A stretch of 64,000 nt of DNA from the NCBI GenBank assembly GCA_944325085.1, contig CALUYT010000021.1, forward strand, positions 1 through 64,000. Direction: 5' to 3'. The translations under genes were made by a program, and so were the position numbers. Origin of the DNA: Candidatus Gastranaerophilales bacterium (lineage in GTDB: Bacteria > Cyanobacteriota > Vampirovibrionia > Gastranaerophilales > Gastranaerophilaceae). The notes beneath the pieces were generated by a model. That model did not search any database. It worked only from the letters and a program-made list of their open reading frames with translations, and was not told where the DNA came from. Of the stretch, positions 37,314 to 39,794 are shown in pieces. Each line of letters opens with the position of its first letter. Positions within the stretch are counted from its first letter, which is position 1.

Positions 37314-39794
37314 ATGCAAGTATCTTTAAACTGGTTAAATGAATTCGTTGATTTATCAAATATTGAAACATCTCAAATTGCTCATGAGTTGACAATGAGT
37401 GGTTTGGAAGTTGAAGGTGTTGAAGATGTTAAACCAATGTTTACAAATATACAAACCGTTAAAATCGAAAAAATAGACGCACATCCAAATTCAGAAAAAT
37501 TACACTTGGTAACAGTAAACACAGCTAACGGTTTAAAAACTGTAGTATGTGGAGCTCAAAATATTCAAGAAGGACAAATTGTTCCATATGCAAGCGTTGG
37601 TTCTCAAGTTTTAGATAGAAAAACAGGAGAAATGTTTACTCTTACTCCTGCTGTTATCAGAGGCGTTGAATCTCAAGGTATGCTTTGCTCTGCTGATGAG
37701 TTAGGAGTTTCTGAAAGAGGATATCAAGAAGAAGATGGCATTTTAATTTTAAACAGAATTTTCCCTGATGTTAAAATTGGTCAAGATGTTAAAGATGTTC
37801 TTGGATTTGAAAAAGATACAGTATTAGAAGTTGCTCCAACTGCAAATAGAGGAGACCAAATGTCTGTTATCGGTGTTGCCAGAGAATTAAGTTCTCTATT
37901 TAATACACCTTTAAAATATAACCAAATTGAATGCACAAAAGACTTATCGACAGATAAATTCAAAGTTGAAATTAAAGATAAAGATGTATGCAAATATTAT
38001 TCAATAGCAATACTTAAAAATATAAAAATAAAACCATCTCCAGATTGGATGCAAAAAAGATTAATTGCATCCGGAGTTAGAGCAATAAACAATGTTGTAG
38101 ATATTACAAATTATGTAATGCTTGAATATGGTTGTCCACTACACGCATTTGACTATGACAAATTAAATGGTTATTTGTGTGTTAGAAGAGCTACAGAAGG
38201 TGAAAAACTAGTAACCTTAGACGGAGTTGAAAGAACCTTAACTACAGATTCTGTACTTATTGCAACAGAAAAAGAAGGTGTATGTCTAGGTGGCGTATTT
38301 GGTGGATAAAATTCTGAAATTGATGATAATACAAAATCTATTGCACTAGAAGCCGCATACTTTACACCTGCAACAAACAGAAAATCAGCAAGAAGCGCAG
38401 GCTATAGAAGCGAAGCAAGCGCAAGATTTGAAAGAGGTATTGATATTGAAGCTGTTAAGCCGGCTTTAATGAGAGCTATGCAATTACTTGTTGAATATGC
38501 TGATGCTGAAGTAGAAGGACTTGTAGAAGATGGTGAAAATAAACTTGAACCAATTGAAATAACTCTTAGATATAATCAAATTAAACGTATTTTAGGCTGT
38601 GAAATATCTCCTGAAAGATGTATTAATATACTAGAAAATTTAGGATTTAAAAAATTAGGCGGTAATGAAGCTGCAGCAAAATTTTTAGTTCCAAGCTTCA
38701 GAGCATATGATGTAACAAGAGAAATTGATTTAATTGAAGAAATTGCAAGAATCAATGGTTACGATAAAATTGCACCTACATTACCAAACAAATCTCAAAC
38801 ACCTACAATAACTTTAGCAGAAAAAGTTATCAAAAAAGTTCATGAATCAATGCTTTCTGCTGGTTTAAATGAAATACAAACAAGTTCACTTATTGGAAAA
38901 CCATTATTAGACAAATTCAAAATCCCATATGATGATATTAATGCTGTAAAAGTTGCAAATGCAGCAAGTGAAGACTATTCAATGTTACGTCAGACTCTTG
39001 CAGCAAGCGTTTTGAGCTGTATGAAATACAACTTTGATAACGGTCAAAAGAATTTCTGGGCTTACGAAATAGGAAGAACTTATTTAAAAGTAGCAGAAGC
39101 TGACGAAAAATCTTCAGGAGTAAAAGAAACTCTTGTACTTGAAGGTATATTAACCGGCGAAGTTCAAAATTCAAAATGGCAAATAAAAACAAATACAGAC
39201 TTCTTCACTGTAAAAGGTATTGTTGAAAGCTTATTTAATGAATTAGATGTAACAAGAAGAATTAAAATTGTGCCTATACAAGAAACAGAACTTGCTCAGA
39301 CACATAAAATCTTCCATCCATATAAAACCGCAGTAATACTATTACTAGGCAAAAAACCTCAACCTATAGGATATTTTGGACAGTTACATCCAACACTACA
39401 AGATAAACTAAAACTTAACCAAGATGCCTTTTTATTCAAAGTTGATTTGGATCAAATAATCTCTGCAGTAAAAGAATCTGTTCCAAGATTCAAACACCTT
39501 CCACAATATCCGGAAGTAAGAAGAGACTTGGCATTTATAATCAATGATAATGTATCTTCTGAAGAAATACAACGAGTTATAAAAGGAGCAGTTAAACAAA
39601 ATATTTATAAAGGTTCTGAAATCTTTGATGTTTACCAAGGTGAACATGTTGAAGAAGGTTTCAAAAGTGTTGCTTTCAGAATCAAAATGCAAGATGAAAA
39701 TGCAACCTTAACTGATGAAATTATTGATCAACAAATGACATCAGTAAGAGAAAAATTACAAAAAACTTATGCTCAAATTACATTCAGGGAGTAA
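37314..39794 (+). pseudogene. pheT: phenylalanyl-tRNA synthetase beta chain, interrupted by in-frame TAA
   Basis: The beta subunit of PheRS, essential for charging tRNA(Phe). The frame is continuous over 827 codons except for TAA at codon 332 (38307-38309). N-terminal part: OB/EMAP-type tRNA-binding domain (VVCGAQNIQEGQIVPYAS), B3/B4 editing region and RGDQMSVIGVARELSS. After the stop, the frame goes on with NSEIDDNTKSIALEAAYF, SARFERGID and the full C-terminal catalytic-like and anticodon-binding domains. The stop replaces the variable residue after GG in the family motif GG-x-x-S-E/G-x. One base change (for example GAA to TAA) explains it. It could be a sequencing error, a strain mutation or readthrough. 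pheS is not in the window. Confidence 0.9.

Follow-up and report, generated by a model that had tools for sequence, protein, structure and literature searches.

The gene for the beta subunit of phenylalanine--tRNA ligase (pheT, PheRS beta) in the window, i.e., the whole stretch of 64,000 nucleotides that was analysed, is interrupted by a TAA at codon 332. The best explanation, with a probability of about 0.8, is that a one-base consensus fault or a non-fixed strain allele overlies an ordinary, full-length, single-copy gene. A single base change in the metagenome consensus would then have turned a sense codon, most likely one for Glu, into a stop. The changed base would be either an error of the consensus or the assembly, which is judged somewhat more probable than an even bet, or a real nonsense allele that occurs in only some members of the sampled population and is not fixed, for which the odds are about those of drawing one suit from a pack of cards. 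In both cases, most cells would be without the TAA, and the living organism would make a normal continuous beta chain pairing with PheS. What is observed is a stop that is private and single, in a gene that is otherwise constrained.

The pheT frame occupies positions 37314-39794 on the plus strand and consists of 825 sense codons and exactly one internal stop. Translation gives 331 amino acids, the TAA at 38307-38309, another 494 amino acids and the natural TAA. The 5′ part (37314-38306, residues 1-331, ending in CLGGVFGG) matches positions 1-322 of the bacterial profile TIGR00472 (pheT_bact) with an E-value of 1.4e-111, and the 3′ part (38310-39794, residues 333-826, from NSEIDDNT to the natural stop) matches positions 324-793 with an E-value of 1.2e-114. 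Both matches are contiguous and leave a gap of one residue, which means that no pheT sequence has been lost. These results bear out the sequence-only reading, which had described a single in-frame TAA in a PheRS beta frame that is intact on both sides and resumes at once. When read through, the gene scores 776.9 bits in a whole-genome search, against a cut-off of 402.65, and covers profile positions 1-793 of 798 with one TAA inside, while each half by itself scores slightly below the cut-off. As assembled, the frame thus departs from the uninterrupted frame of a member of this family. Before and after the stop, the full domain order and the conserved motifs are those of bacterial PheRS beta, as represented by the profile and by the structures 3pco, 2rhs, 4p71 and 1b70 (best match to a solved structure at E 1.2e-126); the difference is the TAA, at the codon that aligns with E320 of the E. 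coli protein.

The host genome, that of an uncultured gut bacterium placed with Candidatus Gastranaerophilales by its nearest named relatives, comprises 1.89 Mb in 65 contigs, with an estimated completeness of 96.4% and contamination of 0.85%, and pheT lies on a contig of 95.6 kb. A second intact pheT was searched for throughout this approximately 96% complete genome and was not found. The gene for the partner subunit, pheS, is present on another contig (338.7 bits) and has no internal stop.

In the alignment with PDB 3pco, codon 332 is placed two residues past G318 of the editing loop of E. coli PheT. This glycine lines the path to the editing site, and changing it lowers post-transfer editing more than 70-fold; aminoacylation and growth of the G318W strain are as in the wild-type (PMC4066437). 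Truncation at residue 331 would remove all of the remaining protein, so the stop would be expected to abolish the beta subunit rather than editing alone. The replaced position itself is variable, as had been proposed for the residue just after the GG: relatives carry Glu, Ala, Gln, Leu, Lys, Tyr or Phe.

Comparison with relatives shows that the stop is private to the window genome. Codon 332 is a sense codon in the pheT of 46 other genomes, all at least 76% identical to the window gene, and likewise in all 79 readable genes from 80 GTDB relatives, none of which has a stop anywhere in pheT. In the three nearest pheT genes (93.6, 92.1 and 92.1% identical) the codon is GAA, which supports the suggested one-base change from GAA. 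No genome of the same species is among those compared, the nearest being 93% identical, and the window's own record or very near ones may be excluded from this set. Nearly all relatives have one pheT per genome.

Sporadic single breaks do occur in draft metagenome-assembled genomes of this kind, as two of them illustrate. Among the matches listed, 2 of the 190 related genomes with a pheT match have an internal stop in the gene, namely the window genome and G028, a member of the same genus. The latter carries a private TAA at codon 721 (L032:4189-4191, minus strand), where relatives have GAA or GAG and in one case GAC, encoding Glu or Asp. It results from the same type of one-base change as the window stop, but at another codon. 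The second example is a distant relative among the GTDB genomes, from a reindeer sample, Reindeer_1_mag_119 (L202), in which a private frameshift is located at codon 332-333, beside a run of five A (L202:3985-3995); the pheT of its near relative L199 (97.8% identical over 401 residues) is intact. In both examples, as in the window, the break is single and private, the sequence resumes directly and close relatives are intact. By chance, a break would land at most one codon away from a chosen site in approximately 0.4% of cases, although the coincidence between L202 and the window was compared post hoc, and a frameshift is not the same type of change as a nonsense substitution.

Selection on the gene argues in the same direction. 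Relative to the nearest relatives, dN/dS is 0.035-0.040 on the 5′ side of the stop and 0.030-0.062 on the 3′ side, close to the values among the relatives themselves, and a single private change is found at the 371 sites that are invariant in the genus set. The low ratios in both halves imply that pheT is not decaying, and together with the invariant sites they indicate that the contig is not noisy and that the gene is not a long-standing pseudogene; pseudogene decay is rejected on these grounds.

The frequency of such interruptions was estimated by a codon-bias scan of both sides of every stop in 478 kb, about a quarter of the genome, sampled by stretches. In this sample, pheT contains the only stop that has strongly coding flanks on both sides and no nearby restart, which makes the interruption more than a chance pattern, and no other gene with an internal stop was found. 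The remaining high-scoring cases are either tandem genes, with a restart a few codons on, or apparent antisense shadows. One of the latter, at C13:72925, was checked and rejected, being antisense to an apparent chromate-transporter-type gene (named by eye). On the 95.6 kb contig, a search with the proteins of relatives yielded N-terminal extensions and antisense shadow ORFs and no other interrupted conserved gene. In the host genome, 5.5% of random coding substitutions give a stop; among these stop-creating changes, GAA to TAA ranks second in frequency and makes up 12.6%. One nonsense change per 431 kb of coding sequence then corresponds to a substitution rate of 4.2e-5 per base (95% range 1e-6 to 2.3e-4), and a rate of about 4e-5 is ordinary for a metagenome consensus.

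In five other genes, i.e., ileS, alaS, secA, dnaE and rpoB, the main matches among genus members are free of internal stops, from which it follows that across the genus, too, nonsense changes in genes of this type number a few per million bases. Such a rate is consistent with rare errors of the consensus or with rare alleles and calls for no special mechanism. Two points count against the preferred explanation. On a contig of this length that is clean elsewhere, a random error in pheT is not highly likely a priori, and both nonsense changes of the genus set hit pheT and none of the five other genes, although with two events this clustering does not reach significance.

The same survey produced some side observations. 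The genome G012 (96% complete, approximately 30 contigs) has no real match to alaS or dnaE, probably owing to assembly gaps, and G002 has two dnaE matches of equal score on contigs C22 and C56, which fits its contamination estimate of 8%. Apparent stops inside rpoC were rejected as readthrough, since they lie in the interval between rpoC1 and rpoC2, which are separate genes. This organization as two genes, one of approximately 570 amino acids followed by a long second one, is seen at L131 (G000:C28:85500-93000) and at L118 in G040. A split rpoC is also the cyanobacterial arrangement.

Among the alternatives, the one that survives best, although it is improbable, is a real, fixed TAA that the ribosome reads through at useful efficiency, by near-cognate decoding or with an undetected suppressor tRNA, to give full-length PheRS beta. 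The essential and single-copy nature of pheT and the purifying selection on both halves would agree with this, as would the tolerance of position 332 for many residues, through which any inserted amino acid could work. An open, conserved frame past the stop is also what the gene shares with known systems of programmed or suppressed readthrough. Unlike in those systems, however, the stop is conserved in none of the readable relatives, and neither a cognate suppressor tRNA nor a stimulating structure accompanies it. None of the 41 typed tRNAs of the approximately 96% complete genome has the UUA anticodon that would read UAA; the only anticodon spelled TAA belongs to the leucine tRNA that reads UUA. 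Folding of the RNA around and downstream of the stop is no better than that of shuffled sequences (z 0.88). Normal termination is also indicated: RF1 is intact (prfA, 492.5 bits), a second, weaker class I release factor match is presumably prfB, and TAA terminates 157 of the 206 ORFs of at least 300 amino acids in the 478 kb sampled, in which no other gene with an internal stop accompanies pheT. Literature searches yielded nothing on point about nonsense changes, readthrough or recoding of pheT in a group of the Gastranaerophilales type. Recoding of codon 332 is thus unsupported. It is more doubtful still that this species reads through a fixed TAA at a position where PheRS beta possibly tolerates breaks repeatedly, as the window stop (G000 codon 332) and the frameshift in L202 could suggest.

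A true loss, in which pheT is dead and phenylalanyl-tRNA comes from another source encoded in unassembled sequence, is very unlikely. About 4% of the genome may indeed be missing, but the single pheT of nearly all relatives, the intact pheS and the low dN/dS in both halves of the gene all speak against it. Slightly poorer still are the prospects of a split enzyme, in which each half would be translated on its own and the two chains would assemble with PheS. A break at a variable site of the B3/B4 editing region at the cost of one residue would suit such an arrangement, and so would the interruption of L202 at the same codon. The first in-frame ATG, GTG or TTG, however, lies at 38469-38471, 53 codons downstream, where a start would drop the conserved residues 333-384, and inspection by eye showed no Shine–Dalgarno-like sequence before it. 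There is thus no stop-restart arrangement, and a split PheRS beta with its own second start and ribosome site is not what is found. The nearest relatives are unsplit, and L202 too has no restart near its break, with the gene intact in L199. A genome-wide reassignment of TAA in this lineage, for which only the internal TAA itself could be cited, can be dismissed almost entirely, as TAA is the terminator used most often, at the end of pheT too, RF1 is present and the 478 kb contain no further internal TAA; under an alternative code, TAA would be absent or rare as a terminator and the release factor changed.

From the four options that the sequence-only reading had listed, a sequencing or assembly error and a strain-level variant are therefore retained, while the split two-chain enzyme and stop-codon readthrough find no support. 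The main lesson is that a lone internal stop in a conserved gene of a draft metagenome genome calls for a comparison with relatives and reads before it is put down to recoding. Should the stop be real and fixed after all, it would be a great surprise: an essential gene would be relying on UAA readthrough in a bacterium that terminates translation normally.
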